This document shows, piece by piece, positions 5,685 through 48,681 of a stretch of 51,993 bases of DNA. The DNA is from a virus. The position numbers and the translations under genes were made by a program. The notes beneath the pieces are model-generated. The model did no database searches, was not told the origin of the DNA, and saw nothing but the letters and a program-made list of their open reading frames with translations. Position 1 is the first letter of the stretch. Every line of letters begins with the position of its first letter. The stretch is from positions 1-51,993 of the IMG/VR virus record IMGVR_UViG_3300032177_000015; one strand, 5' to 3'.

Positions 5685-6074
5685 TTATTCTATTGGTTTT
5701 GGAAATCTAGTTTTTATTTCTTCAACTTTAGCTATCCATACTGATTTTTCTATTTCCCCTCGTTGAAAATCGAAAAATAATCCATCACTTTCGTTTATAT
5801 AAGCAGATTTTCTTTGAGATATACATATTTCTAAATCTCTATTATATCTAAATTCTTTTAAATTTACAGAAGTATCTATTTCAATAATTTCTTTATTTAT
5901 AAATTTAAATATTGGATTTCCCATTTCATCTGAAATACATTTATTTTCTATCCATATTGATTGTTCTTGAACTTCATCAAAAAATATTTCCGTTCCATCA
6001 AACTTAGAAACAACATGTTCATGAAATAAGTCTATAATTTCATTTTTTTCATTTATTTTTATATATCTTTTCAT
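5685..6074 (-). CDS. Tail-fibre-associated / fibre assembly-like protein
   Basis: The 129-residue acidic protein ends with the wording ESDGLFFDFQRGEIEKSVW followed by a Lys-Val-Glu-Glu-Ile-Lys tail, which resembles the C-terminus of many small phage proteins encoded next to fibres ('DPLFFKxQRGE...W...KVEEIKxRYP'). Such proteins often act as fibre assembly chaperones or are appended to fibres. Its position between the two paralogous fibre genes supports that role. It has no cysteines or membrane segments. Confidence 0.55.
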   Translation of the reverse strand: MKRYIKINEKNEIIDLFHEHVVSKFDGTEIFFDEVQEQSIWIENKCISDEMGNPIFKFINKEIIEIDTSVNLKEFRYNRDLEICISQRKSAYINESDGLFFDFQRGEIEKSVWIAKVEEIKTRFPKPIE

Positions 6075-6075
6075 T

Positions 6076-7416
6076 TTAATTTCCTAAATATGTGCAAGAA
6101 AAAAATATATTCCCCGGAGCTATTGCTGTTGAGTGTGGTCTCATAATATCTCCTTTTTTAAGATACGCTGTATAAGCCATAACAATTCCAGCTGTAGCTG
6201 ACCCAAAACTTATTGAGCAAATAGTATTAGCTGTAATTGATGTTACATCAGTTGTACGTTGTGCTGAATTAAGTGAGAGACCATAAAATGCAGCTGTCCC
6301 ACTTTCTACTCCAGAATGTATAAAAGCATATCTTCCTGATCGATTTATAGTAATTTCCAACCCTTTAGCATTACCAGAATACCCACTAACATGGTTTTCT
6401 GAAAACATATTTCCAAAATTTTCAGTAACAGTTGTAAATCTCATAATTTTTGTATCAGTTGATCCATAACCCGCATATGTGTCTAATCTCAACTGACTTG
6501 TAATTCTTTCATTTACAATTTCCCAACAATTAGAATTTGAGGATTGTTGCACAACTATAAAATCTCCAACTTTGGGAAGTATAATCGATGAGAGTAAATC
6601 ATTCGATAATTTACCGGCGTCTGTAGCATGAGGAGAGATTGTAACTACATCAAGAGAAGCATCATTTTTTACAAATTGGATTCGTATTTGTCTTCCTAGA
6701 TTATTAGCCATAAGAGGGAGAGTAATTGTAACTGCCCCCGCTGTCGTATCTACTTCGATAACTTGTAATCCATCTGTATCTGTTATAGGATATGTTGCTT
6801 GTTTATATGCTGTTATAGGATGTGATGTTAATGTTTTTACTGCTTTTTGACTAGGTATTAAAACATCACTATTTCCAGCAAAAGTTATGTCTGTACTTAA
6901 ATCTGCTCCATCAACTTGTTCTACATTAAGATTTGATACTTTAGTTGTAGAGGTTATTATAAAAGGAGAAGTTCCAATAGGAACATCATTTGTAAATTTT
7001 TTACCCCAAGTTTTACTAGCATAAGTTATACTTGTAATTACTCCACCACCAAATACACATTCACCTAAACATACTTCATTTGTTAATGCTCCAGATCCAG
7101 ATGCTCTTTGATTAAAATCTAACCAATCTTCTGAAACATCTTGCCAAGTATACGTAAGTGCTATTACTGGTGTAGATTCTGTAACTGTTATATTTACATT
7201 CGCTCTAGTTTCAATTCTTACAAGTTTGTCTGTACTTGTATTTATATATATAACAAAGGGAGCTATTGTTATTCCTGTACCAGAATAAGTAATAAGACCA
7301 CCTTTATAAACACCAGGAGTAATTGCTTCTCTAAGAAGAGTATTAAAATCACTTCCTTTTGCTGGGTGTTTATAATCAAATGTAATATATTGATCCCCTA
7401 GATTTGTTGCTGACAT
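6076..7416 (-). CDS. Tail fibre protein A
   Basis: The 446-residue protein is Thr/Ser/Gly/Val-rich and beta-structured throughout. It sits directly after the gpI-like gene, the position of the fibre gene in P2-type tails (J-I-fibre-assembly). It has the N-terminal anchor-like region shared with the fibre at 4417-5673, a middle spacer (SQKAVKTLTSH resembles the common fibre motif 'S-x-x-A-V-x-x-Y/L'), the conserved block at about 229-306, and a divergent C-terminal tip ending in CTYLGN. The likely role is adhesion to the host surface. Two fibres sharing a stem but differing in tip could widen host range or form a mixed fibre. Confidence 0.7.
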   Translation of the reverse strand: MSATNLGDQYITFDYKHPAKGSDFNTLLREAITPGVYKGGLITYSGTGITIAPFVIYINTSTDKLVRIETRANVNITVTESTPVIALTYTWQDVSEDWLDFNQRASGSGALTNEVCLGECVFGGGVITSITYASKTWGKKFTNDVPIGTSPFIITSTTKVSNLNVEQVDGADLSTDITFAGNSDVLIPSQKAVKTLTSHPITAYKQATYPITDTDGLQVIEVDTTAGAVTITLPLMANNLGRQIRIQFVKNDASLDVVTISPHATDAGKLSNDLLSSIILPKVGDFIVVQQSSNSNCWEIVNERITSQLRLDTYAGYGSTDTKIMRFTTVTENFGNMFSENHVSGYSGNAKGLEITINRSGRYAFIHSGVESGTAAFYGLSLNSAQRTTDVTSITANTICSISFGSATAGIVMAYTAYLKKGDIMRPHSTAIAPGNIFFSCTYLGN

Positions 7417-25634: not shown

Positions 25635-26741
25635 ATGCAAATAATTTATAATAATATACCCTTTGAAATTGCAGAGTTATATCAACCTATTTATAATTTT
25701 AATGAAGTACAAGAGTATAAAAGAAATAGTAATGATAGATGGAAAACTATTCTACAAGCAGAAGAAGGATATAATAACAATAAAATGTTTGAAGGTAGTA
25801 TTTGTGATTGGGGATGTAGTCTTGGTTATTTTTCTTTTAAATTAGCAGAAAAAACAAAAAAAATAATAACTGCTATTGATTACGACTATAATAATATATT
25901 ATTATGTAATGAAATAAGAAAATTTAATCAAATTAAAAATGTAGAATTTTTAACTGGTATAATACCAGAAGCAATTCCTGAAAATTATGAATCTCATATT
26001 ATTTTATCAACCCTACATCATTTTCAAAAAAATTATAAATTACCCAATGAAGTTTATGAAAAAATAAAAAACTCAACTACTATTTATTTAGAATTAGCGC
26101 ATTGTAATGAATCACCTAGTTGGGCAAATAAACTACTTCCTGAAGATTATGAATCTCTTTCCCCTATTCATACATTATTTAATTATATAACTAATCAATT
26201 TTTAACTCATACAGTTAGACTTATTGGTGTACATAAAACTCATATAGGGAGTCTTAGACCATTATTTCAATTAAAAAAACATATTTCAGAAAAAATAGAA
26301 ACTGAATTATTTACTGGAATTATTTATGATAGATTTTTATTGCCTTATATAGACTTTGGAGATTTTTCTTTAACTCTTCAAGGAAAACTAGCTCATGGAA
26401 AAAGAGAAAAACAAGGAATATCATACGCTTTTGCAAAAGATGTATTAAATGAAAAATATTTTTTAAAATTTATTAATAATGTTTTAACTAAAAAATCAAA
26501 ATTTATTAATGGATTTTTATTAAGTGATATAATTAAATTTGGATTACTTCCTTATTATGATAGATTTAAAATAAAAACTCAACTTACAAAATATAATTCT
26601 ACCAATCATACAGATCCACATACTTGGAATTTTTTTATTACTGAACAATCAGAAGTAATTCCTATTGATTTTAATGAATATACAACAACAACAAATGAAA
26701 ATCTAAATGCCTTTATCTCAATATTAATACAAACTATTTGA
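25635..26741 (+). CDS. SAM methyltransferase fused to a phosphotransferase/kinase-like C-terminus
   Basis: The N-terminal half is a class I methyltransferase: SICDWGCSLGYFSFKLA (motif I, 55-71), ITAIDYDYNNILLC (acidic D82/D84) and IILSTLHHF (motif IV region). Near the end, HTDPHTWNFF (H325, D327, N332) followed by VIPIDFNEY (D345) reproduces the catalytic loop and metal-binding Asp of aminoglycoside-phosphotransferase/choline-kinase-like enzymes ('H-G-D-x-H-x-x-N ... I-D-F/W-x'). A single protein could methylate and phosphorylate a sugar or lipid, but the kinase ATP-binding lobe is not obvious between them, so the second activity is inference. It lies 2 nt after the previous stop. Confidence 0.65.
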   Translation: MQIIYNNIPFEIAELYQPIYNFNEVQEYKRNSNDRWKTILQAEEGYNNNKMFEGSICDWGCSLGYFSFKLAEKTKKIITAIDYDYNNILLCNEIRKFNQIKNVEFLTGIIPEAIPENYESHIILSTLHHFQKNYKLPNEVYEKIKNSTTIYLELAHCNESPSWANKLLPEDYESLSPIHTLFNYITNQFLTHTVRLIGVHKTHIGSLRPLFQLKKHISEKIETELFTGIIYDRFLLPYIDFGDFSLTLQGKLAHGKREKQGISYAFAKDVLNEKYFLKFINNVLTKKSKFINGFLLSDIIKFGLLPYYDRFKIKTQLTKYNSTNHTDPHTWNFFITEQSEVIPIDFNEYTTTTNENLNAFISILIQTI

Positions 26742-26754
26742 GGTTGAAAAATCA

Positions 26755-27759
26755 ATGACTATTGGAACTCGTATTATTCTTGAAAATAGAAAACCATTAG
26801 AAACTCTATTGCCATTAGAGGCTCCATTAGTACTTTTTATAGACCCTTCTGATTGGTGCTGTCTTAAATGTTTGTTTTGTCCAACCTCTGATAAAAAATT
26901 AATGAAGAAAGTTAATCGTCCCTTACAATCAATGAATTTTTCATTATTTACTTCAATTATAGATGATCTATTACAATTTAAAACTAAAATTAAAGTAGTT
27001 AGACTTTATGGACATGGTGAACCACTACTTAATATTAATTTTAGTAGAATGATTAAATATGCTAAACAATCAAATAGAGTAGAAATGGTAGATACTACAA
27101 CTAATGCTATTTGTTTATATCCTCAATTAAACTTAGAATTAATTGCATCAGGAATAGATAGAATAAATATTTCAGTTAATGGATTGAGTGATGAACAATA
27201 TCACAAATTTACTAGAGTTAAAATAGATTTTAAAAAATATGTTGAGCATATAAAACATTTATATGAAAATAAAAAACAGTGTTATATATTTATAAAAATA
27301 AATGGAGATACAATTTCTAAAGAGGATGAACAAAAATTTTTAGAAATATTTGAACCAATTGCGGATGCAGTAGCAGTTGAAAAATCTATGGCCTGTTGGC
27401 AAAGTTTTAAACCAAAAGGATTTTTAAGATCAGATGATACTATAGGAATTTATGGACAATCACTCAAAGAAGAAGCTCTGGTTTGTCCATATATAATGTA
27501 TTCTCTTTTTATACATAGTGATGGATTGGTATCTTCTTGTTTTTTAGATTGGAATAGAAAATTGAAAATAGGAGATATTAATACTACTTCAATTTATGAT
27601 ATATGGAATGGAGAACAATTAAAAAATTTTAGAAATTTTATGTTAGAAGGCAAACGTAAATCACATCGTTATTGTAAAAATTGTGATCAATTAAAAAAAG
27701 GTATGCCATCAAATATAGATAATTATGCAGAAGAATTAATAAAAAAATATAATTTTTAG
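26755..27759 (+). CDS. Radical-SAM enzyme with SPASM-like C-terminus
   Basis: C35-x3-C39-x2-C42 within DPSDWCCLKCLFCPTS is the radical-SAM [4Fe-4S] ligand motif. RLYGHGEPLLN (about 83-93) matches the 'G-G-E-P' SAM-binding motif with His for Gly. The C-terminal part has further cysteines (VCPYIMYSLFIHSDGLVSSC and RYCKNCDQL), separated as in SPASM/Twitch domains, which carry extra iron-sulphur clusters; 'G-D-I-x-x-x-S-I-x-D-I-W-N' is typical of that tail. It could perform a radical modification of a sugar, peptide or lipid. Its place among glycosyltransferases points to unusual glycan chemistry. Confidence 0.8.
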   Translation: MTIGTRIILENRKPLETLLPLEAPLVLFIDPSDWCCLKCLFCPTSDKKLMKKVNRPLQSMNFSLFTSIIDDLLQFKTKIKVVRLYGHGEPLLNINFSRMIKYAKQSNRVEMVDTTTNAICLYPQLNLELIASGIDRINISVNGLSDEQYHKFTRVKIDFKKYVEHIKHLYENKKQCYIFIKINGDTISKEDEQKFLEIFEPIADAVAVEKSMACWQSFKPKGFLRSDDTIGIYGQSLKEEALVCPYIMYSLFIHSDGLVSSCFLDWNRKLKIGDINTTSIYDIWNGEQLKNFRNFMLEGKRKSHRYCKNCDQLKKGMPSNIDNYAEELIKKYNF

Positions 27760-27770
27760 GAAATATTAAA

Positions 27771-28619
27771 ATGGGATTATTACTTCCTCAAATAGAATAT
27801 ACAATTAAAACATGTAAAGAAAATAATATAACAGGATCAATATTAAGTTTAGGAAGATTAGATTATTTTATTAATTTTGAACAATTTGAAAAATTAATGA
27901 TAAAATATGAATTAGCATATTATGTTAATACTACATTAAAATTTTTTGATTCAAAAATAGATACTGCTGTTAAGAACTTAATTGAACAACATAAACATAT
28001 GAGTCTTTCAAAACAAACAATAATAGCATATCCTTGTATAAGTGATACTCTTTTTTATACAGCTTTAGGTTTTGAAATAATGGATTCAATTGATGTTCAA
28101 GGTACAGCAACAATTATTTTTAATTTAAATAATAAAGGTATTATTGATATTATTGATAAAAGATATAATCTAGTTATTGATGCAGGAGTAATGGAACATG
28201 TATTTGATATACGTAGTGTATTTTTAAATTCTACTGATTTATTAACTCCTGAAGGATATATAATACATATATTACCAGCTAATAATACTATGGATCATGG
28301 ATTTTATCAATTTTCTCCAACATTATTTAATGATTATTATTTGACGAATAAATATGAAATAATAAATAATATTATTTTAGAATTACTTCCAAATAAATAT
28401 TCAAGATCTACTTTTTTTGTCGATAGATGGGATTATTATAGATTAATTGAATATGATCCTTATTTTTTTGGTAAAAATAGTTTTGGACAGTTATCTGATA
28501 ATATATATTATGTAATGATGTGTGCAAAAAAACAAATAAATTCTTTAAGAGATCAAGCTCCACATCAATATGCTTTTGCTGGAAATCCTATAATTTCTCC
28601 ATGGTATTGTAGTAGATAA
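27771..28619 (+). CDS. Methyltransferase-like protein
   Basis: The 282-residue protein has a central segment resembling class I methyltransferases from motif IV on: YNLVIDAGVMEHVFDIRSVF, then LLTPEGYIIHILPANNTMDH, then GFYQFSPTLFNDYYLTN, like the 'D-x-V-x-x-x-x-x-x-E-H-x' wording of small-molecule methyltransferases. The N-terminal glycine motif is degenerate (TGSILSLGRLDYF), so SAM binding is uncertain. Proteins of this type are common in polysaccharide loci. It starts 12 nt after the radical-SAM stop and precedes an FkbM gene. Confidence 0.6.
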   Translation: MGLLLPQIEYTIKTCKENNITGSILSLGRLDYFINFEQFEKLMIKYELAYYVNTTLKFFDSKIDTAVKNLIEQHKHMSLSKQTIIAYPCISDTLFYTALGFEIMDSIDVQGTATIIFNLNNKGIIDIIDKRYNLVIDAGVMEHVFDIRSVFLNSTDLLTPEGYIIHILPANNTMDHGFYQFSPTLFNDYYLTNKYEIINNIILELLPNKYSRSTFFVDRWDYYRLIEYDPYFFGKNSFGQLSDNIYYVMMCAKKQINSLRDQAPHQYAFAGNPIISPWYCSR

Positions 28620-28629
28620 AGAGGTTAAG

Positions 28630-29310
28630 ATGCAAAATAATAAATTAATATTTGATTTAGGTTTTTGTGATGGAGCAGACACCGAGTATTATTTATCAAA
28701 AGGATATGAGGTAGTAGCAGTAGAAGGTAACCCCAATTTAACTGAAATAGGAAATAAAAAATTTAAAGATGAAATAAATAAAGGTCAATTAATTCTTTTA
28801 AATAATGTAGTATCTGATGAAATAACTAAAATAGATTTTTATATTCATCCAACTAAATTAGAATGGGGAAGTATCTATCAACATATTGCAGAACAAGATG
28901 GAGAAACAAGTACTAAAATAATAGTTGAGTCAATAAATATAAGTAGTCTTTTTGAAAAGTATGGAATACCATATTATATGAAAGTTGATATAGAAGGTTG
29001 TGATATAATAACTTCCTTTCATTTAAGGTTTGCTAAAGAAAAACCTAAATTTGTTTCTTTTGAATTAAATAAAATAGATTATATGCATTTATTTATAAAT
29101 CTTCAAAAAGCTGGGTATAAATATTTTCAGTTAAGAAATCAGGCCAATAATACACCATTAAGTTCAGGTTTATTTGGACAATTACTTCCTTTAGATAAAT
29201 GGGTTAGTGCTGATATCGCTTTAGATAGGTATATAAAATTTAATGAATTACGAGGATTAGATAGAGAAAATTTAAGTTTTGGATGGTTGGATATACATGC
29301 TCAACAATAA
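28630..29310 (+). CDS. FkbM-family methyltransferase
   Basis: The 226-residue protein is a compact FkbM enzyme. The N-terminal LIFDLGFCDGADTEYYLSKG holds motif I, VVAVEGNPNLTEIG supplies the conserved acidic residue, and KVDIEGCDIITSF is the FkbM signature ('K-x-D-V-E-G-x-x-x-x-x-L') with all key residues present, unlike the FkbM gene at 23282. It would methylate a hydroxyl of the glycan. RBS GAGG upstream; the next gene starts inside its 3' end. Confidence 0.8.
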   Translation: MQNNKLIFDLGFCDGADTEYYLSKGYEVVAVEGNPNLTEIGNKKFKDEINKGQLILLNNVVSDEITKIDFYIHPTKLEWGSIYQHIAEQDGETSTKIIVESINISSLFEKYGIPYYMKVDIEGCDIITSFHLRFAKEKPKFVSFELNKIDYMHLFINLQKAGYKYFQLRNQANNTPLSSGLFGQLLPLDKWVSADIALDRYIKFNELRGLDRENLSFGWLDIHAQQ

Positions 29311-30931
29311 AATATTATTTATAATTCCTCCCTATCTTCCATTTGATGAATATAAACCTTCTAAAGTAGGACAAAAATTACCAACCTTAACACCACCTTA
29401 TGGAGTATTATCTATTATTTCATACATAAATCAAAATAAAGAATATAATATAGAAATTTTAGATTTAAATTATGAGATATTAAATACACCCAATTTAGAA
29501 GTAAATATATATCAAGAATATATTATTAACATAGTTACAATAAAATTAAAATCTTTTGATCCTAAATACATCTGTATTTCAGCTCTATTTAATACTAGTT
29601 TTCCTCATATGAAATATTTATGTCCTATAATTAAAGAAATATTACCAGAAAATATTCTTATTATTGGTGGTGGATTAGCTACAAATTTATATGAAGATTT
29701 ATTTACTGAAATTTCTTGTATTGATATTCTATGTTATGGTGAAGGAGAATTACCTTTTAAAAAATTATTAGATGATAAAGAGAATAAGCAAGTACATGAA
29801 ATAAGTAAATCTTTAATAACAAAAAAATCATTAAAATTAAATATTAAACCTGAATATGATTTTATTTATAATCTTGATGATATTCCAATTATTAATTTTA
29901 CTTATATAAATTTAAAAAAATATAATGGACGATCTTATGTAGATAAAGATTCTAATAAAATAGAAGTAAGTATTCATACTTCACGTGGATGCCCTTATAA
30001 TTGTTGTTATTGTAGTAATTATATCGTTCATGGTAAAAAAATTAGAATAATGTCTAATGAAAGATTTTTAGAAACTATTAAATATTACATTAATAATTAT
30101 AAAATGAATACTCTTCTTATTGAAGATGATCATTTTCTTGCTAATAAAGAAAGAGCTTTATATTTATTAGAAGAAATTAGAAAATTAAATATTAATATAG
30201 AATTCCCTAATGGTATTGCTGTTTTTAAAATAGATGAAGAAATAGCAAAAGCATTGGCAGATACTAAAATAAAATTACTTCCTTTAGCTATTGAATCTGG
30301 GTCAGAATATGTTTTACATAAAATAATAAATAAACCTCTTAAAAAAGAACAAATATATAAAGCTGTAAAATTATTAAAAAAATATAATATAAGACTTCAT
30401 GCATTTATTGTAATTGGTTTTCCCAATGAATATGATAAACATAGAAAAGAAACTTTAGATTTATTACTTGATATAGGGATAGATTGGGCTCATATATTTA
30501 TTGTTGTTCCTATTGCTGGAAGCCGATTATATCAACAATGTAAAGATAATGGATATTTACTAACTACTGACTATAATAAATATACTGTATCTAATTGTAA
30601 TATCAAAGCACCTGGAGTAAAACCAGAACAAATAGAAGAATATGCTCAGTATATGAATTTAATTGTAAATTTTTTAGAAAATACTAATTATAAAAATAAT
30701 AGATATGATATTTGTTTACCTTATTTTCAAAATGTAGTTAATCATTATCCTAGTCATGCAATTGCTCATTATATGTTATATAAAATATATATTAAAAGTA
30801 AAATATTAAATAATATAGAAAAAGCTGAATATCATTATAATTTGTTTAATAATTTAAAAATTAATAATGAATTTTATAAAAAAATAATAGATAAATTTAA
30901 AAAAGAAGGTTATAATTTTGATAGATTATAG
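29297..30931 (+). CDS. B12-binding-domain-type radical-SAM enzyme
   Basis: The ATG at 29297 is preferred to an in-frame TTG at 29279; it overlaps the preceding gene by 14 nt. Residues about 1-150 have the cobalamin-binding-like Rossmann fold seen in B12-radical-SAM proteins (PPYGVLSIISYI; ILIIGGGLATNLYEDLF; ILCYGEGELPFKKLL), although the DxHxxG cobalamin motif is not apparent. The radical-SAM ligands are in SRGCPYNCCYCS (C-x3-C-x2-C). VIGFPNE and the downstream TIM-barrel strands follow. The last 100 residues resemble a TPR pair (YFQNVVNHYPSHAIAHYMLY). Relatives methylate unactivated carbons or modify lipids and antibiotics. Confidence 0.8.
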   Translation: MLNNKILFIIPPYLPFDEYKPSKVGQKLPTLTPPYGVLSIISYINQNKEYNIEILDLNYEILNTPNLEVNIYQEYIINIVTIKLKSFDPKYICISALFNTSFPHMKYLCPIIKEILPENILIIGGGLATNLYEDLFTEISCIDILCYGEGELPFKKLLDDKENKQVHEISKSLITKKSLKLNIKPEYDFIYNLDDIPIINFTYINLKKYNGRSYVDKDSNKIEVSIHTSRGCPYNCCYCSNYIVHGKKIRIMSNERFLETIKYYINNYKMNTLLIEDDHFLANKERALYLLEEIRKLNINIEFPNGIAVFKIDEEIAKALADTKIKLLPLAIESGSEYVLHKIINKPLKKEQIYKAVKLLKKYNIRLHAFIVIGFPNEYDKHRKETLDLLLDIGIDWAHIFIVVPIAGSRLYQQCKDNGYLLTTDYNKYTVSNCNIKAPGVKPEQIEEYAQYMNLIVNFLENTNYKNNRYDICLPYFQNVVNHYPSHAIAHYMLYKIYIKSKILNNIEKAEYHYNLFNNLKINNEFYKKIIDKFKKEGYNFDRL

Positions 30932-34361: not shown

Positions 34362-35636
34362 TTGAAATCTAAAAATAGTCCTCGAATATTAATATGTAGT
34401 GATTCATTTAAGAATATAACTGGTTTATCATATGTAGCTTTGAATTTATGTAATTTTTTTATTCAAAAAGAATATTTAGTAAATTATTGCATTTTGAGTG
34501 GAGAAGATTGTACGATAAATGATCTTCCTAATAAAGGGCATTTCTTTTATGAAAATTTATTTGATTCAAAAATTTATAATTGTCAAAATAAAAAACAAGA
34601 TTCTTTAACTATCTTAAATGATTGTATAAAAGAATTTAAACCTAATATAGTTTTAACAATTCATGATTTATGGCAATTTGAAAATATCATATTATCTGCA
34701 TATAGAGATACATTTACATGGATAGCATATTGTCCAATAGAAAGTGATTTCTATTCTGAATATGTAATTAATCCAACACAAATAGATCCAAATATAAGAA
34801 AATCTTTAAGTGATATATGTAAAAATATAGATTATTCTATTGCTTATAATGAAGTTGGTAAAATACAATTAAATAAATTTGGAGCTAATACTTTAGAATC
34901 TTTACCAAATGGGTTAGATAATTTTTATTTTGAAGAAGAAGAATTAACTAAACAATTAGTTTTTCGTGGAGCAATTAAAGAGGATGATTTTGTTTTTATT
35001 ACAGTTGGACATAATTTCAATAGAAAAGGATTAGATTTTGTCATAGAAGCTTTTTATAAATTTTTACAAAAAGTAGATAATAAAGAAAAATATAAATTGT
35101 ATCTTCATGGAATGGTAGATACAGTAGATGCAGGAACTGATATAAAATCTATGATTTATGAATTGAAAATATCAGATAATATTATACTATCTAAGCCTGA
35201 ACAAATATCAAAAAGAGAATTATATAAAAGATATCGATGTTGTAATTGCTATATAGGATTGCCTCTTGCAGAAGGGTTTGGATATGGATTTATGGAAGCA
35301 ATGATAAATGGTCTTCCTATTATATATCATAATGTAGGTGGTATATCACAATATATACAAGATTTTGGTTTTCCTATATCAAGTGTTGCTACTATAAGAC
35401 CAAATAATTATTTCTGTGATTGGAAAATACCCAATATAAATGAAACAGTTGAAAAAATGTTAGAAGTAATTCAATTAAATTTAACTGAATTAGATATTAT
35501 TAAAAAAAGAAATCAAGAAGAAGGACAAAAATACCTTTGGGAAAATATATATAATCAATTAGATTCTATATTAGATTTTAATAGTATAAATAAAATAGAT
35601 ATATTTAATAAATTAAGTATTAAAAGAACTGCCTAA
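34362..35636 (+). CDS. GT-B glycosyltransferase (GT4-like)
   Basis: The TTG start has AGGAG upstream. The N-terminal RILICSDSFKNITGLSYVAL is the acceptor loop region; the donor half begins at VFITVGHNFNRKGLDFVIEA (about 207) and includes CYIGLPLAEGFGYGFMEAMI, giving the E-x7-E motif, and GLPIIYHNVGGISQYI. It is the last glycosyltransferase, separated from the operon by the tnpB gene and the 93-aa unit. It could have been one operon with the upstream genes before those insertions. Confidence 0.8.
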   Translation: MKSKNSPRILICSDSFKNITGLSYVALNLCNFFIQKEYLVNYCILSGEDCTINDLPNKGHFFYENLFDSKIYNCQNKKQDSLTILNDCIKEFKPNIVLTIHDLWQFENIILSAYRDTFTWIAYCPIESDFYSEYVINPTQIDPNIRKSLSDICKNIDYSIAYNEVGKIQLNKFGANTLESLPNGLDNFYFEEEELTKQLVFRGAIKEDDFVFITVGHNFNRKGLDFVIEAFYKFLQKVDNKEKYKLYLHGMVDTVDAGTDIKSMIYELKISDNIILSKPEQISKRELYKRYRCCNCYIGLPLAEGFGYGFMEAMINGLPIIYHNVGGISQYIQDFGFPISSVATIRPNNYFCDWKIPNINETVEKMLEVIQLNLTELDIIKKRNQEEGQKYLWENIYNQLDSILDFNSINKIDIFNKLSIKRTA

Positions 35637-36474: not shown

Positions 36475-37845
36475 ATGAAAATAGAACTTAAAGGAAATCC
36501 AAATTATTGTGCAACTATAGTACAAATAGATAGTATAATTGAACTTGAAGATTGTACACAAATACAAGGAACTATTATTCAAGGTAATCATGTAATAATA
36601 TCTAAAGATGTAAAAATAAGTGAGGATGCAAGAATAAATGATATAGGTATATTTTTTCCTATTGAATGCTCTATCAAAGAAATATTTCTTAGAGCAAATA
36701 ATCTATATAGGGATAAAGAACTTAATGAGGATAAAACTAAATCTGGATTTTTTGAATTAAATGGTAGAGTAAGATGTGTGAAATTAAGAGGATTTAAATC
36801 AGAAGGATTTTTTATTCCTTTACAAAGCATAAATTTTTTAACATCTAAAGATACTATATTTGATTTGACTAAAAACATACCTCTTATTACAATCGGGACA
36901 GATTTTGATCATATAAATGGGCAAATGATTTGTAAAAAGTATTTTGTACCAACTAAACAAGTTCAAAATGTTTCTAAGAAAGATAAGAAGAATAATAGAA
37001 TAAAAAGATTTAATAAATTGCTGGACAATCAATTTAAATTTCATATTGATACAGCACAATTGGCAAAAAATATTCATATGATACAACCAAATAATTTAAT
37101 AAGTATTACAGAGAAAATTCATGGCACTTCTGCAATAACTTCTTATATACTTTGTAATAGGAAACTTACATTAAAAGATAAAATTGTTAAGTTTTTTGGT
37201 GTTAAGGTAGAAGAAACAGAGTATAGCTATATATATGCATCTAGAAAAGTTATAAAAAATCAATATTTATATGAAGATAAACTTAATCATTATTATACTA
37301 CTGATATATGGAAAGTAGGAGCAGAAGAACTTAAACCATTTCTTCAAAAAAATATGACTATATATTATGAAATCGTGGGATATTTATCTGATGGTAAAAT
37401 GGTACAGAAGAGTTTTGACTATGGTTGTAGACAAGGACAACATGAGAAATATATCTATCGTATAACAACTACAAATTCAGATGGAAAAGTAACTGAATGG
37501 TCTATGTTTCAAATTCAACAATGGTGTAAACAAAATGGTCTTAAGGCAGTACTTGAACATTATTATGGATATGCTAAGGATTTATTTAAAGAAATAATAG
37601 AGTTTACTTCTAATGATATAGAAACATGGCAACATTTATTTCTTGAAAAATTACAAGAAACTTATCTTGAAAAACAATGCTCAATGTGTCTGAATAAAGT
37701 TCCGAATGAGGGAATCTGTTTAAGAAAGGAATCTTTAAATATTGAAGTATGGAAATTAAAATCATTTTTATTTAAACAGTTGGAAAGTAAACAAGCAGAT
37801 GAAGGATTAGAAAATATAGAGGATAATCAAGGAGAAGAGATATGA
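36475..37845 (+). CDS. RNA ligase, DraRnl (Rnl5) type
   Basis: The N-terminal ~180 residues form an OB-like domain as in Deinococcus RNA ligase. The nucleotidyltransferase core follows: motif I TEKIHGTS with K214 as adenylated lysine, motif III YYEIVGYLSDG, motif IV EGICLRKES, motif V EVWKLKSFLF. The 'K-x-H-G-T-S' wording is characteristic of the DraRnl group, which seals 3'-OH/5'-phosphate nicks in RNA-containing duplexes. Phage RNA ligases often repair tRNAs cut by host anticodon nucleases or other abortive-infection systems. A C-terminal acidic tail (EGLENIEDNQGEE) is extra. Its start abuts the amber-interrupted gene. Confidence 0.85.
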   Translation: MKIELKGNPNYCATIVQIDSIIELEDCTQIQGTIIQGNHVIISKDVKISEDARINDIGIFFPIECSIKEIFLRANNLYRDKELNEDKTKSGFFELNGRVRCVKLRGFKSEGFFIPLQSINFLTSKDTIFDLTKNIPLITIGTDFDHINGQMICKKYFVPTKQVQNVSKKDKKNNRIKRFNKLLDNQFKFHIDTAQLAKNIHMIQPNNLISITEKIHGTSAITSYILCNRKLTLKDKIVKFFGVKVEETEYSYIYASRKVIKNQYLYEDKLNHYYTTDIWKVGAEELKPFLQKNMTIYYEIVGYLSDGKMVQKSFDYGCRQGQHEKYIYRITTTNSDGKVTEWSMFQIQQWCKQNGLKAVLEHYYGYAKDLFKEIIEFTSNDIETWQHLFLEKLQETYLEKQCSMCLNKVPNEGICLRKESLNIEVWKLKSFLFKQLESKQADEGLENIEDNQGEEI

Positions 37846-42936: not shown

Positions 42937-43103
42937 ATCAGAAAAAATATGAAGAAGCTTTGACGGAGAATTATAGGCTGAGTAAAAAAGTATCTCAACT
43001 CGAATCAGAAAATAAAACTTTAAAACAAGATATTAGAGACAGGGAGGGGATAATTGTAAAACTATCCGACAAAATTGTTATACTCAAAAAGGTTAATAAA
43101 TGA
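42933..43103 (+). CDS. 56-aa coiled-coil protein
   Basis: Starts in ATGA-like overlap after GAGGAGGAAG. The product (MNQKKYEEALTENYRLSKKV...) has regular heptads through residues 8-50 and no Cys, so a small coiled coil. The following 100 nt contain no confident gene but an open stretch in another frame (about 43102-43220) that looks like decayed coding sequence. Confidence 0.5.
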   Translation: MNQKKYEEALTENYRLSKKVSQLESENKTLKQDIRDREGIIVKLSDKIVILKKVNK

Positions 43104-43204
43104 GCAAAGCAAGAGAGAACTAGATTATATTATTTCAATCAAAAAACTTAAATCAGAGAAAGTTAGCATATATAATATTAAAAAGATGAATAAAGGATGT
43201 ATAA

Positions 43205-43618
43205 ATGAGGAATGTAATGGTTAAAAAATTTATAATAAAACTTTTTATGTTAACTGATATAAATGATATGATCTTACAAGGAAAGAAAAAACAAAAGCAT
43301 CTAGATGAAAAATTTTGGAAAGAAAAATTACAAGATAATACTATTCATTTAAATAGAGAACACAGTCTAGAAATTCAAGAACTACAAGCACAAATATCAA
43401 TGTTAGAAGATTCAATAAAAGTATATAAAAGTAAAGCAAAAGAAGTAGAAAATAAAGAATATGAAAATAGAAAGTGCGCAAAAAAAAATTCATTTGTAGC
43501 AACTAAAATGAGTACTCAAATAGAAGATTTTGCTATGTCTATTATGTCAATAGTTGGTAAAATGAAAGGAATAAAAGAAGAAGCAGAAAAAAATAAATTA
43601 GAGATAACTCAAAGATAA
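43205..43618 (+). CDS. Unknown 137-aa coiled-coil protein
   Basis: AAAGGA precedes the ATG. A short hydrophobic N-terminus (KKFIIKLFMLTDI) is followed by a long Glu/Lys-rich helical stretch (about 30-85) and a second helix (QIEDFAMSIMSIVGKMK). It could be a phage scaffold, membrane-associated or DNA-binding protein; nothing decides. It is the last plus-strand gene before the transposon. Confidence 0.5.
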   Translation: MRNVMVKKFIIKLFMLTDINDMILQGKKKQKHLDEKFWKEKLQDNTIHLNREHSLEIQELQAQISMLEDSIKVYKSKAKEVENKEYENRKCAKKNSFVATKMSTQIEDFAMSIMSIVGKMKGIKEEAEKNKLEITQR

Positions 43619-43638
43619 TTTAAAAATGTGAACTTAAC

Positions 43639-43656
43639 ACAACTCTAAAGAGTTGT
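43639..43656 (-). repeat. Right-end hairpin of the IS200/IS605-type element
   Basis: ACAACTCT-AA-AGAGTTGT pairs over 8 bp, 38 nt after the tnpB stop on the minus strand. Read on the element's strand the centre is CTCTTTAGAG, shared with the hairpin at the other end. Confidence 0.65.
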
Positions 43657-43693
43657 ATCTTCCTACTCTGAGTGTCTAATAACTTGCTCATAT

Positions 43694-44842
43694 CTAACAG
43701 GCGTTAATTTCCTCTGTTCCGGAGGTATTTAATTTTAAAAGTGGGTAATCCACTTTAGTTAAACCAAAATTCTTAATATTTATAGCAGCATTAATATCTC
43801 TATCATGAGTTTCACCACAATCACAAGTCCATTGTCTATCTGATAATGTCAAATTATTATTTAACATTCCGCAAGAATGACATAATTTAGTTGATGGGTC
43901 AAAACGACCAATAGAGATTATGGTTTTACCATACCAATTAGCTTTGTAATTTAATTGTCTAACAAACTCAGACCAGCTAACATCACTTATTGCTTTAGCT
44001 AATTTGTGATTTTTAACCATATTAGATACTGCTAAATCCTCAATACAAATAGTTTGGTTTTCACTAATTATTTTTGAAGAAAGTTTGTGCAAGAAGTCCT
44101 TACGCTGATTAGTAATTTTTTGATGAGTTCTTGCTACTTTAATTCTACTTTTATTTTTATTATTACTTCCTTTTATTTTATGACTATATTTTCTTTGAGC
44201 TTTCTTTAACTTCTTTTCTGATTTCTTCAAGTGTTTAGGATTAGAAATCTTTTCTCCATTACTTGTTACTAAAAAATCCTTAATTCCCAAGTCAATACCA
44301 ATAGTAGTTTTCTCATTTACTGTCTTTGGTTCAATTATATTATCTGTTGTCTCAACAAGAATAGTAGCAAAATATTGGTCAGAAGGATTTTTAGAAATAG
44401 TTAATGTTTTTTCTTTTCCTTCGTATAATCTGTGTTGAATTATTTTAATTCCTTCTTTTAATTTAGGAATATATAATATTCCTTCTTCTATTTTATAATG
44501 TTGAGGAATTTGAAAACTTTTATGATTATCGTGTTTCTTTTTAAATTTAGGAAAACCCTTTTTATTACGGAAAAAATTCTTAAAAGCTATATCTAAATTT
44601 CTCATTTCCATTTGAAGAGATTGAGAATTTATTTCATTTAACCAAGGATATTCTTTTTTGAGTTCTGGTATTTTGTTGTTTAATTCAATCCATGATATAC
44701 TTTTCTTGGTATTAGTATAATGTTTAGTTTTAGCGTCAAGACCCCAATTATATAAGAAACGTGTAGAACCAAAGTGTTTAGCTAAAAACACTTTCTGTTC
44801 TTTGTTAGGGTAAATGCGATATTTATAACCTTTCTGTATCAT
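43694..44842 (-). CDS. tnpB: TnpB-type RNA-guided nuclease, intact
   Basis: The 382-residue protein has the full TnpB order with catalytic D184 (GIDLGIKDF), E268 (CIEDLAVSNM) and D347/D349 (THDRDINAAINI), and zinc ligands C321-x2-C324 and C340-x-C342. The C-terminus SGTEEINAC is a widespread ending in this family. A guide RNA would come from its 3' part and the right end, about 43620-43760 on the minus strand; CCTCCGGAACAGAGG there can form a scaffold hairpin. Its sequence differs strongly from the TnpB at 32685 (SADMS in place of GIDLG), so the two arrived independently. Confidence 0.92.
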   Translation of the reverse strand: MIQKGYKYRIYPNKEQKVFLAKHFGSTRFLYNWGLDAKTKHYTNTKKSISWIELNNKIPELKKEYPWLNEINSQSLQMEMRNLDIAFKNFFRNKKGFPKFKKKHDNHKSFQIPQHYKIEEGILYIPKLKEGIKIIQHRLYEGKEKTLTISKNPSDQYFATILVETTDNIIEPKTVNEKTTIGIDLGIKDFLVTSNGEKISNPKHLKKSEKKLKKAQRKYSHKIKGSNNKNKSRIKVARTHQKITNQRKDFLHKLSSKIISENQTICIEDLAVSNMVKNHKLAKAISDVSWSEFVRQLNYKANWYGKTIISIGRFDPSTKLCHSCGMLNNNLTLSDRQWTCDCGETHDRDINAAINIKNFGLTKVDYPLLKLNTSGTEEINAC

Positions 44843-44938
44843 ATTTATATATTAACCAATTATTTATAAAAGTAAACAAATTTTTCTTAAATTTTAACAT
44901 TTTTTTAAAAAAACTTAAATTACTTCGCCTTATATACA

Positions 44939-44955
44939 CACCTCTAAAGAGGGTG
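44939..44955 (-). repeat. Left-end hairpin of the IS200/IS605-type element
   Basis: CCTCT-AA-AGAGG (44941-44952) forms the core stem, with CA and TG pairing outside across one bulged G. It lies 97 nt upstream of the tnpB ATG. The CTCTTTAGAG core on the minus strand is identical to that of the right-end hairpin. Confidence 0.6.
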
Positions 44956-44991
44956 CATTTTTACGGCAGTTTTATAAATTGAATTTGTTAT

Positions 44992-45990
44992 TTAACACAT
45001 ATGAATAAAACTAATATCAGGAATTTGTAACCATTTCTCTTCTATTTTATCTTTAAGATCTGTTACATACACCCAAATAAATTTTCTTCTTTCTTTTTGT
45101 CTTTTAATATTTTGTTTATTGCTTCTAGCTTGGCTTCTAATAATTTTCGCACTAATTCCAGATTCTTGTTCTGCTATATAGCAATTTTGATAGGTTTTTA
45201 TAAAATCTCCTTGTAAACTATATTGAGAAATTGGATTAACACTCATTAAGTTTTTATTTTTTAAACTTATTTTCATTGCCTCACTTCTTTTTTGAATAGT
45301 AATTTTTGATTGTTTTATTCCTTTATGAGAATCAGAACATTTTTTCTTAGATTCTTCTGAATTTTTTTGCCCTTTTCTGGGGCTTGATTTTCCTAATTTT
45401 TTATCACTCATTATTTTCAATGTTTCATTTGAAAAAACACCAATTTTCCCTCTACTCCAATGACTGCCACCATTCTTATAATATTCAATAAGAGAATTTG
45501 ATGTATTTATTCCAATCATTAAAATAGAAATATTATCATCTTTAGTTAGTCCTTTATTCCAAGGAGTTGGCATAATTGCGCCACTAACTCCCTCGCCGCC
45601 ATCAGTCATATTTGTTAAAATACCTAATTTTTTATCTTTTCTTCCAATTAACTTTATAAAAAATCTTTCCAATAAATAAGAAGTTTCTTCTTCTAACTTC
45701 TCACAAATTTTATAAATAATTATTTCTTCTCCTTCTCTTTGAATTTGATTTATAGTATTTATTTTATGTCTGTTGTATTTTAGTTTTTCTTCTTTAATAG
45801 TTTCTTCTTCGATGATATCATAATATTTTTTAGCTTCTTTTAAATGAGAATCTAATCTCAAATCTTTTCCTTTTCCAATATAAAATGGAGCACAGGGAAA
45901 ATCTATACCTATTCCGTTTTCCATATAACTATAACTTCCGGGTTTTAAGGGGTTACAATAAACATATACATATACATAAAATTTATTCAT
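44992..45990 (-). CDS. GIY-YIG homing endonuclease with NUMOD repeats
   Basis: ATG at 45990 (MNKFYVYVYVYCNP) has GAGGT upstream and gives the usual family start; an ATG 21 nt earlier lacks one. The GIY-YIG core contains VYVYVY, FYIGKGKDLRLDSH (conserved Arg and His) and the catalytic Glu in TSYLLERFFIK, then LTNMTDGGEG. DNA-binding NUMOD3-type repeats (TPWNKGLTKDD; SPRKGQKNSEESKKKCSDSH) and a NUMOD1-like segment (SQYSLQGDFIKTYQNCYIAE) follow. The last about 22 residues (LKDKIEEKW-x2-IPD...FIHMC) copy the end of the neighbouring structural protein (LKEDIQTKW-x2-IPD...FVHMV), indicating insertion at that gene's 3' end. Such enzymes spread into phages lacking them. Confidence 0.85.
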   Translation of the reverse strand: MNKFYVYVYVYCNPLKPGSYSYMENGIGIDFPCAPFYIGKGKDLRLDSHLKEAKKYYDIIEEETIKEEKLKYNRHKINTINQIQREGEEIIIYKICEKLEEETSYLLERFFIKLIGRKDKKLGILTNMTDGGEGVSGAIMPTPWNKGLTKDDNISILMIGINTSNSLIEYYKNGGSHWSRGKIGVFSNETLKIMSDKKLGKSSPRKGQKNSEESKKKCSDSHKGIKQSKITIQKRSEAMKISLKNKNLMSVNPISQYSLQGDFIKTYQNCYIAEQESGISAKIIRSQARSNKQNIKRQKERRKFIWVYVTDLKDKIEEKWLQIPDISFIHMC

Positions 45991-46042
45991 CTTTCTACTT
46001 ACCTCTAACATTTTGAAATAATAAAAAACTGTAATTTTCTAT

Positions 46043-46054
46043 TATTTATTAATA
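46043..46054 (-). promoter_or_regulatory. Late-promoter-like motif before the homing endonuclease
   Basis: TATTAATAAATA on the minus strand, one mismatch from the consensus (the characteristic C is T). It lies in the 123-nt gap between the structural gene and the endonuclease. Weak evidence in A/T-rich DNA. Confidence 0.3.
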
Positions 46055-46134
46055 TAAATATTTTAAAAAATATTGGAAAATATATAAAAGTTAGAGATTT
46101 ATATATCTTATCAGGGTACAGCCTTATCCAAAAT

Positions 46135-46884
46135 TTATACCATGTGAACAAAAATATTATCAGGGATAGCATCCCATTTTGTTTGAATATCTTCTTTTAA
46201 TTTAGAGGCTCTTTCACTTAATTTCTCGATATTTATATTTATTTCCAATCCGGAATCTACTAATATAGAAGCACTATCTGATAAATGATCTAAAACTTCT
46301 GCCTGACAAAGTTTAATTACATCATCTCGTCTTTCAAATTTAACATCAGCAAAATCATTACTATATTTAGCCCAAGTAACATTCAATGCTCCAGTAATAG
46401 AGCTATATACAATTAGTTTTCTATTTTCTATATCTACTCTTGTTTTAATAGTTGTATACATATTTTGTTGAGATTTAAATCTATATCTTTCCATATCTCT
46501 TTGTTGCATTAACTGTGATGGATTATAACCTTTTACACCATAAGCACCAACACCTTTAATTGTTGCTGTATTTGATGTTGTATTCATAAATAAAATTAAA
46601 TCCCAAAATGATGTACCACTTCCCGGAAGTAATCCAATATCCACTACTCTTGCATCTAAAACACCGAAGGTGTAATCGTCTGGAAATGTTACAAATGTTT
46701 CTCCATTTATTGAAGCAGTATATTCCTCTTTAAGAGGAAATTTTGTAAAATATCGCTGTAAAACAGGGAATATACAAAGATCTTTTATTTCTTCGTCATC
46801 TAATAAAAGTGAATCGACCATCGGCGCAGCAATGACTTTTTTTATAAGATTTAAATAATTATCTTCTATTAAAATATCTGACAT
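46135..46884 (-). CDS. Virion structural protein, probably neck/connector
   Basis: The 249-residue protein has an N-terminal helical part (YLNLIKKVIAAPMVDSLL; LCIFPVLQRYFTKFP), a beta middle (ETFVTFPDDYTFGVLDARVV) and a C-terminal helix pair (DVIKLCQAEVLDHLSDSASI; LSERASKLKEDIQTKW). This pattern occurs in head-completion or neck proteins of large myoviruses. It is downstream of the terminase and has an exact late promoter 16 nt ahead of its ATG. Its C-terminal ~21 residues are duplicated at the end of the adjacent homing endonuclease. Exact role unproven. Confidence 0.5.
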   Translation of the reverse strand: MSDILIEDNYLNLIKKVIAAPMVDSLLLDDEEIKDLCIFPVLQRYFTKFPLKEEYTASINGETFVTFPDDYTFGVLDARVVDIGLLPGSGTSFWDLILFMNTTSNTATIKGVGAYGVKGYNPSQLMQQRDMERYRFKSQQNMYTTIKTRVDIENRKLIVYSSITGALNVTWAKYSNDFADVKFERRDDVIKLCQAEVLDHLSDSASILVDSGLEININIEKLSERASKLKEDIQTKWDAIPDNIFVHMV

Positions 46885-46899
46885 TTGATTTCCTCTTTA

Positions 46900-46911
46900 T
46901 ATTTATTAGTA
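46900..46911 (-). promoter_or_regulatory. Late promoter, exact TACTAATAAATA
   Basis: An exact minus-strand copy 16 nt before the ATG of the neck-like gene, with AAAGAGG as ribosome-binding site. Confidence 0.65.
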
Positions 46912-46929
46912 ATATAATATTATAAATTA

Positions 46930-47364
46930 TTATAAAAAAAGTACTAATATAAGAATTAAAAGTCCTCCTGTTATTGGAAAACCAATTTCTGATAGATCTC
47001 GATATACAATTCTCCATTCAGGTATATTTTGAGAAGTATCATTATCTATATTTAATATAAGTTCTACTTCAATAAAATTTATTTCCATATTATTTTTATT
47101 TATCCAGATAATACGAATATTAGTTTTATATTCTCCTTTTATATCTGTTTCCTTAATTTCTGAACAAACAATATTTACTCTTTTTTCTACTTGAGCTAAC
47201 ATAATTTCTTTATATTTATCAGCACCTTGTACAAGAGTTTCAAATTGTTCTGGAGTAAATCTACCAATAATTTTATCAGATTGTGTTATATAAATATTAT
47301 TATCTATTCCATAAAGTAAACTGCTAACACATATAAATAATATAACTAATATTAATTTTTTCAT
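46930..47364 (-). CDS. Secreted/membrane protein with signal peptide and C-terminal membrane segment
   Basis: MKKLILVILFICVSSLLYG is a Sec signal peptide. The periplasmic middle (about 20-125) is mixed alpha/beta with one Cys (VCSEIK), and the last 15-17 residues (PITGGLLILILVLFL) form a C-terminal anchor. It overlaps the upstream 78-aa membrane gene by 4 nt. A type I-like inner-membrane protein facing the periplasm, encoded among head genes, could take part in lysis or block further infection. No family recognised. Confidence 0.55.
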   Translation of the reverse strand: MKKLILVILFICVSSLLYGIDNNIYITQSDKIIGRFTPEQFETLVQGADKYKEIMLAQVEKRVNIVCSEIKETDIKGEYKTNIRIIWINKNNMEINFIEVELILNIDNDTSQNIPEWRIVYRDLSEIGFPITGGLLILILVLFL

Positions 47365-47597
47365 TTTTTTACCTTTGATAATATTTCTTTTGCTATATTA
47401 ATTGATTCAGAAAGAGTATTTAAATTATCTTCTTTTTTACAATCTATAATTTTAAATGTTGGAATTATTTGTAATTTTTTATTATTATTTTTAAGATATA
47501 ATACAAAAGCAACTATACCTACAAATATAATTATTATAAAAATAATAGTGAGTATTGTTATTAAGTATATTTTAACATTCATTAAAAATTTTACCAT
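47361..47597 (-). CDS. 78-aa membrane protein (single N-terminal segment)
   Basis: Residues 8-34 (KIYLITILTIIFIIIIFVGIVAF) form a strong membrane helix; the remaining 40 residues are charged and helical (DCKKEDNLNTLSESINIAKE). It overlaps the following secreted protein by 4 nt and starts 3 nt after the zincin stop. The pair resembles in layout, not sequence, inner-membrane lysis accessory pairs. Confidence 0.5.
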   Translation of the reverse strand: MVKFLMNVKIYLITILTIIFIIIIFVGIVAFVLYLKNNNKKLQIIPTFKIIDCKKEDNLNTLSESINIAKEILSKVKK

Positions 47598-47600
47598 TTT

Positions 47601-48302
47601 TTATTCATCCTCCTCAAGATACATATACATATATTTATACAGTAATTTTAATTGCCAATCCTTCATAGTAAATTCATCATGATAAACTCTTAATGTGAAA
47701 TTTTGATATTTTTCTAATTCTTTTGATTTTAATATTTCCCGAATTTTATCTTGTTGATAATTAAATAATTTAAAAAGTTCAATAATTTCCCAAGCTTTTG
47801 CCATAATTTCTTGTTTATCAGATAAATATTCTCGTCTATCTTTTGGAGATTTTTGAAATACTTCATTTCTTAATTTAGCATCTTTAACCTTTAAATGTTG
47901 ACCTCTATGAACTAATTCATGTTTTAAAACAAAAAGTAACCATTTTACAAAAAATGGGTATGCCTCTTTATTCTGCAAACTTCTTACAATATTTTCATTT
48001 ATAAAGATACCTATATCATTTGTTTTATTAGATATAGTTGCCCCACTATTTATACCAAATTTAATATTTGGCTCATAAGGATCATCATTTATATTTGATT
48101 GAGGTATAAATTGAATCTTACTTTTTCTAAAAATTATATTTAATTTAAATGATATATTTTTTAAAGAAACATTTTTGAATTTAAAGAATGATAAATCATT
48201 TAAATCTTTTTTAATTTGATCTAAATATAAATTAGGATTAATAATTGCTTCCGTAATTTTAAATGAATCATCTATACCAAAATATCTTACATATCTTTTC
48301 AT
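47601..48302 (-). CDS. Zincin-type metallopeptidase-like protein
   Basis: H128-E129-x2-H132 in LKHELVHRGQH is the zinc-binding HExxH motif of zincins. A downstream acidic segment REYLSDKQEIMAKA supplies the third ligand, most likely E165, as in peptidases with 'H-E-x-x-H ... E-I-x-A-x-A'. The N-terminal about 100 residues are of unknown fold. It is coded between terminase and neck-like genes, so it may mature the capsid or scaffold, or be carried in the virion. It does not resemble the T4 gp21 protease or serine prohead proteases. Activity is inferred from the motif. Confidence 0.65.
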   Translation of the reverse strand: MKRYVRYFGIDDSFKITEAIINPNLYLDQIKKDLNDLSFFKFKNVSLKNISFKLNIIFRKSKIQFIPQSNINDDPYEPNIKFGINSGATISNKTNDIGIFINENIVRSLQNKEAYPFFVKWLLFVLKHELVHRGQHLKVKDAKLRNEVFQKSPKDRREYLSDKQEIMAKAWEIIELFKLFNYQQDKIREILKSKELEKYQNFTLRVYHDEFTMKDWQLKLLYKYMYMYLEEDE

Positions 48303-48309
48303 TTTAAAT

Positions 48310-48681
48310 TTAAATTCCTAAGATACTAAGATTACAATTCATTGGAAGAATACTATTTGTAGACATATCTATACTTGTAATTAAATTAGCAAATACAGTA
48401 TCTACAGAATAAACAAATATACCATTTATGGGAATAACAATACCAGATGAATTATAAACAATTCTTAAATTTGCTGTAGCAAGAGTATTACTTGGATCTT
48501 CTACATTTGCAATAATTTTTGATATAGTACCTATTTTAGAAATAGAATTAGTAATCCAACCATCTGTAGATGTTAATTCATACATTTCTCTTTCCAACTT
48601 TCCTGTCAATGTTAAATCTTCTGATGAGTACTGGTCAGAAATTTCTTTATTGCCAACAACTTCAAAATTTAAAGTTACCAT
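48310..48681 (-). CDS. Unknown 123-aa beta-rich protein, likely structural
   Basis: No signal, membrane segment or Cys pair. Strand-rich text (LNFEVVGNKEISDQY; NLRIVYNSSGIVIPINGIFV; LPMNCNLSILGI) fits a small head or tail component. It has a tandem late-promoter-like motif upstream (48713-48734) and lies directly after the terminase gene. Confidence 0.5.
   Translation of the reverse strand: MVTLNFEVVGNKEISDQYSSEDLTLTGKLEREMYELTSTDGWITNSISKIGTISKIIANVEDPSNTLATANLRIVYNSSGIVIPINGIFVYSVDTVFANLITSIDMSTNSILPMNCNLSILGI

Follow-up and report, generated by a model that had tools for sequence, protein, structure and literature searches.

Homing genes that duplicate the end of their host gene have been described among the mORFs of fungal mitochondria, in atp6 of Allomyces macrogynus and in atp6, atp9, cox2 and nad3 of Glomus sp. 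(PMC3630166). The phage locus described here resembles them in several respects; in both, an endonuclease gene lies behind a gene whose C-terminus is duplicated, with one copy forming the end of the host gene and the other following the endonuclease, and the copies have diverged (63.5% DNA identity in the fungal atp6). The atp9 case is also like ours in its GIY-YIG enzyme and in the mORF directly abutting the displaced tail (PMC3630166). Among phage systems, the T4-type Seg and Mob enzymes share with our locus an intron-less gene behind an essential gene, and spread by double-strand-break repair with co-conversion of the flanks, while the homing gene mobE of phage Aeh1 has likewise inserted into an essential phage gene, nrdA, that remains functional (PMC2988022). 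In ICP1-type phages, unrelated classes of homing endonuclease genes cluster at the same favourable places, as they do behind our structural gene (PMC10448857).

The window analysed here is the whole 51,993-base record of an uncultivated virus. Its minus strand carries, in order, a 249-aa gp13-like gene, a 339-aa endonuclease gene and a TnpB-like gene, and both open reading frames on which the original prediction was built are present at the coordinates it gave. The features of the locus are as follows.

46135..46884, minus strand: gp13-like portal-neck connector gene, 249 aa (Foldseek match to T4 portal-neck chains; relatives 66-72% identical in phages without the homing gene)
46138..46209, minus strand: last 24 codons of the structural gene, the upstream one of the two tail copies (end-anchored comparison)
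46012..46139, minus strand: 5' leader of the mobile cassette, common to the endonuclease locus of phage G001 (DNA similarity)
44992..46011, minus strand: GIY-YIG homing endonuclease gene, 339 aa as called (PF22945 match, dN/dS)
46002..46006, minus strand: probable endonuclease ribosome-binding site, AGAGG (sequence)
45064..45432, minus strand: DNA-binding modules resembling NUMOD3 and NUMOD1, with KFIWVY at their end (NUMOD3 E 0.006, below cut-off; likeness to the NUMOD1-type repeats of cr6_1)
44995..45066, minus strand: 24-codon tail repeated as the in-frame end of the endonuclease gene (BLASTP and end-anchored comparison)
43694..44842, minus strand: TnpB-like (IS605 OrfB) gene directly downstream of the endonuclease (PF01385 E 7.5e-32; phrog_506 E 8e-130)

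Two selfish nucleases, the endonuclease and then the IS605-type TnpB-like gene, are thus stacked at one site. Elsewhere in the window, plus-strand genes at 29279-30931, 34362-35636 and 36475-37845 match a radical SAM protein with a B12-binding domain, a glycosyltransferase and, weakly, an RNA ligase.

The original prediction held that the C-terminus of the endonuclease copies that of its neighbour and that the underlying DNA is similar though diverged, and both parts stood up. We compared the last 24 residues of the enzyme (VTDLKDKIEEKWLQIPDISFIHMC) and the structural protein (ASKLKEDIQTKWDAIPDNIFVHMV) without gaps and anchored at the end; 11/24 are identical, the two sequences finish flush at their stop codons, and the BLOSUM62 score is 59. 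None of 200,000 shuffles reached this score (z = 7.0). Among 434 open frames of the window and related loci, no unrelated C-terminus scores above 8. BLASTP of the two proteins gives E = 3e-5, and at the DNA level 42/72 bases (58%) agree between the copies. Residues of the window's structural tail that recur in the enzyme tail include the tryptophan, the IPD and the F-x-H-M. The enzyme tail is closer still to the structural tail of the related, uninserted locus L005 (13/24 identical, score 70); searched blind, it matches structural genes in two phage records (E 0.001-0.009). At the sequence level, these comparisons confirm that the final 24 residues of the neck protein recur, in diverged form, at the end of the endonuclease, and a gp13-like C-terminus stands both before and behind the endonuclease domain.

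A recent tandem duplication is rejected because the copies are too diverged (58% DNA identity). Nor is the tail a conserved domain of the enzyme family that recurs away from this structural gene, an outcome that would have counted against the original prediction and that we looked for among enzyme relatives at other loci. It is missing from the nearest of them (catalytic domain 73% identical, at another locus in a related phage) and from 11 other phage endonucleases; the absence covers L011, L014 and the phage enzymes that were each set against the gene upstream.

The structural protein has no Pfam match, and no relative appeared in searches of annotated phages or genome contigs. However, Foldseek with its AlphaFold model (pLDDT 69) returns T4 portal-neck chains first (E 3.5e-7, TM about 0.5), and the lengths of the matched chains (290-308) fit gp13. 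The modelled protein thus has the predicted fold of the T4 neck protein gp13, which bears out its initial labelling as "neck-like". A terminase large subunit gene lies nearby, and by eye a sheath-like gene lies downstream in the related loci L009 and L042. As the last helix of the model spans residues 219-238, the copied part corresponds to the end of that helix and the arm. The arm that follows helix 6 of T4 gp13 reaches in between the portal clip domains (PMC12270204).

The enzyme matches the LEM-3-type GIY-YIG nucleases (PF22945, 43.5 bits against a cut-off of 27, E 4.1e-11), and the catalytic motifs Y-x-Y, FYIGKGK-x2-R, ERFF and TN can be found by eye in its translation. The catalytic domain is followed by a NUMOD3-like stretch, a NUMOD1-like region and the 24-residue tail. 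In the crAss-like phage cr6_1, the NUMOD1-type repeats of an enzyme end in KFIWRYKE and a stop codon, and the corresponding region in the window ends in KFIWVY; the tail therefore starts where such an enzyme normally ends. There is no intron or intein around the enzyme (no Rfam match, upstream gene complete), which by its sequence is an intron-less, free-standing phage homing endonuclease, with DNA cleavage as its predicted activity. Its start is probably the internal ATG at 45990 rather than the called start at 46011, with AGAGG at 46002-46006. A search of genome contigs found no relative of the enzyme.

A relative does exist in G001, the 155-kb phage of L005, which carries it between other genes at 26673-27884. 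Its catalytic domain is 73% identical to that in the window, but its C-terminal module is different. Comparison of the catalytic domains (dN/dS 0.145/0.711, about 0.2) indicates that the endonuclease is under purifying selection. The DNA that the two loci share (77% over 563 nt, window 46139 to 45581) sets in immediately after the stop codon upstream, in G001 as in the window, and stops with the catalytic domain. The first boundary gives the 5' limit of the mobile unit, and the second implies that catalytic and DNA-binding parts get exchanged. The catalytic domains have a dS of 0.71, lower than that of phage genes from the same two phages (terminase 1.39, gp13-like 1.19, a further gene 1.18), and the cassette has therefore crossed between lineages after the phages split. 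In G001 the leader folds into a long hairpin (z -5.2; L021 1920-2058, minus strand); the fold in the window (46000-46140, minus strand) is weaker (z -1.9) and is predicted to pair the probable ribosome-binding site of the enzyme with TCTCTAAC of the leader. We also observed a 29-residue relic behind an ATPase-like gene of the same phage (L028 1501-1587), 69% identical to the C-terminus of the G001 endonuclease and probably a decayed copy of its end.

Searches with the terminase and gp13 yielded four relatives, L004, L005, L006 and L007, whose gp13-like genes are 66-67% (the first three) and 72% (L007) identical to that of the window. All four have a single gp13-like tail, with no endonuclease and no TnpB behind the gene, and share with the window the opposite-strand gene downstream (43205-43618), so that they are collinear with it on both sides. 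The enzyme gene is thus an insertion at the 3' end of the structural gene, as originally predicted, and the structural gene was left intact, with one complete tail closing it and the other duplicated behind the enzyme. Beyond the enzyme's stop codon, no homology of the 3' flank to the relatives' downstream DNA was found; the TnpB element, missing at this place in all four, follows there. In the more distant L009 and L019, GIY-YIG genes start 23 and 4 bases behind the stop codon of the gp13-like gene. The L009 enzyme is of the T5orf172 type (6259-6561), the L019 enzyme is a GIY-YIG protein with an I-HmuI-type NUMOD (5752-6633), and neither carries a tail copy. That these unrelated genes lie behind the same gene suggests a favoured landing place for homing genes.

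We propose, with a probability of roughly two in three, that one-sided repair placed a homing cassette at the 3' end of the essential gp13-like gene, leaving one tail to close the gene and the other fused to the enzyme. The cassette would consist of the leader of about 120 nt and the LEM-3-type GIY-YIG endonuclease gene, and a donor phage would have coded the enzyme just behind its own gp13-like gene. The enzyme may then have cut the gp13 tail of a co-infecting phage, and repair would have copied the end of the donor gp13, the leader and the enzyme gene by homology on the left, while on the right the copy was presumably joined to the cut end without homology. The enzyme would thereby have lost its stop codon and come to read in frame into the displaced tail of the recipient, while the structural gene would have retained a complete, sequence-diverged tail. 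The duplication of the tail, the loss of the enzyme's stop codon and the co-conversion of the gene's end would then all follow from a single event. The enzyme tail would be mostly a scar, perhaps kept because it supplies the enzyme's stop codon, and as a further step the diverged new tail may also shield the structural gene from re-cutting. With just 46% identity between them, the two tails either go back to an old event or have different phage sources. The analysis turned up neither a donor phage nor an intermediate.

According to the original prediction, the enzyme carries the original tail and the structural gene a new one, and relatives lacking the insertion should have tails nearer the enzyme version. 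Scored against the enzyme tail and the structural tail, the relatives give 70/52 (L005), 42/66 (L007), 39/30 (L009), 35/41 (L019), 51/35 (L042) and 26/22 (L046). L005, L009 and L042 thus side with the enzyme version, L007 and L019 with the structural one. The same scores identify the enzyme tail as a genuine member of the gp13 tail family rather than a decayed copy of the neighbouring tail. We also counted the sites agreeing with only one of L007 and L005. L007-only and L005-only sites number 9 to 31 in codons 147-210 of the structural gene, 26 to 12 from codon 210 on, and 7 to 12 in the enzyme tail, which places a switch from L005-like to L007-like near codon 210-221. The gene upstream of the tail is L005-like, as is the enzyme tail; locally, therefore, the enzyme tail reads as the gene's continuation and the structural tail as an import. 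The permutation p-values are 0.013 (two breakpoints) and 0.04 (3' breakpoint), for breakpoints chosen from the data after looking. Overall, the mosaic sites lean weakly towards the original tail lying on the enzyme, as first proposed.

A tree of the structural gene without its tail does not agree with this placement; it joins the window and L007 (UFBoot 91), which by itself would make the structural tail native. The same cassette would then have acted in the reverse direction, the structural gene keeping its own tail and the enzyme arriving with one captured earlier from an L005-like phage. The structural tail shares KLKE and WDA with L007, the closest relative of the whole gene. Grouping the enzyme tail with L007 is disfavoured (AU p 0.018 for 6 tails with two outgroups, 0.065 for 8 tails with four outgroups), in tail trees (4, 6 and 8 tails) whose 24 sites hold little phylogenetic power. 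L005 has the tail most similar to that of the enzyme, and its phage also carries the closest enzyme gene, which was exchanged after the phages split; this position of the cassette's known relative would fit an L005-like donor, not an L007-like one. We nevertheless consider the reverse direction the less likely of the two, since it requires an earlier capture event, of which none was seen, and since the gene just upstream of the tail, as far as the switch, is L005-like in the same way as the enzyme tail.

Perhaps the enzyme tail is instead a functional portal-docking arm that would bring the enzyme to the portal or neck of the virion, get it packaged there or let it interfere with the neck, for example in packaging or in the exclusion of rival phages. 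The C-terminal arm of T4 gp13 does insert into the portal clip (PMC12270204), and the copy retains the conserved residues noted above. However, 24 codons are too few to show selection, base identities between the enzyme tail and L005 are nearly even over the codon positions (15, 15 and 12 of 24), and a short arm alone may bind poorly without the dodecamer, so that we think such a role very improbable. Still harder to credit is a reading in which the tail of the enzyme is the second exon of a split gene or of one interrupted by a group I intron: the enzyme frame does run on into the tail, as in the many intron-borne enzymes whose reading frame is continuous with the exon, but the stretch 43000-48500, searched for a catalytic RNA core, matched nothing in Rfam up to E 5, the gene upstream is already complete with tail and stop codon, and just 124 nt separate the two reading frames.

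An intron-less homing gene that settles in conserved, essential sequence has to leave its host gene functional. Under the one-sided repair that we favour, the window suggests how this can be done, and in a gene whose T4 counterpart contacts the portal through its extreme C-terminus. The two tails of the window offer a concrete allele pair on which one-sided break repair could be studied, and the in-frame capture of host-gene sequence by an endonuclease is a possible route to new enzyme domains. The T4-type Seg and Mob enzymes listed in PMC2988022 lie between genes or split them, with no duplicated host-gene tail described; nrdA of Aeh1 is split into two working polypeptides, again with no duplicated tail, whereas the host gene in the window stays whole (PMC2988022). 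The portions of the ICP1 report that we draw on contain no such tail duplication in the endonuclease clusters (PMC10448857). We found no phage case of tail duplication by a homing gene in the open literature, subscription journals being mostly outside this search. The window differs from the fungal mORFs in that its host gene is a phage structural gene and its second tail is in frame as the C-terminus of the enzyme; moreover, in the fungal cases the tail nearer the relatives is clearly the displaced one (PMC3630166), whereas in the window the evidence points both ways. C-terminal duplication by a homing gene has so far been described mainly in fungal mitochondria, and the window suggests that it extends to phages.
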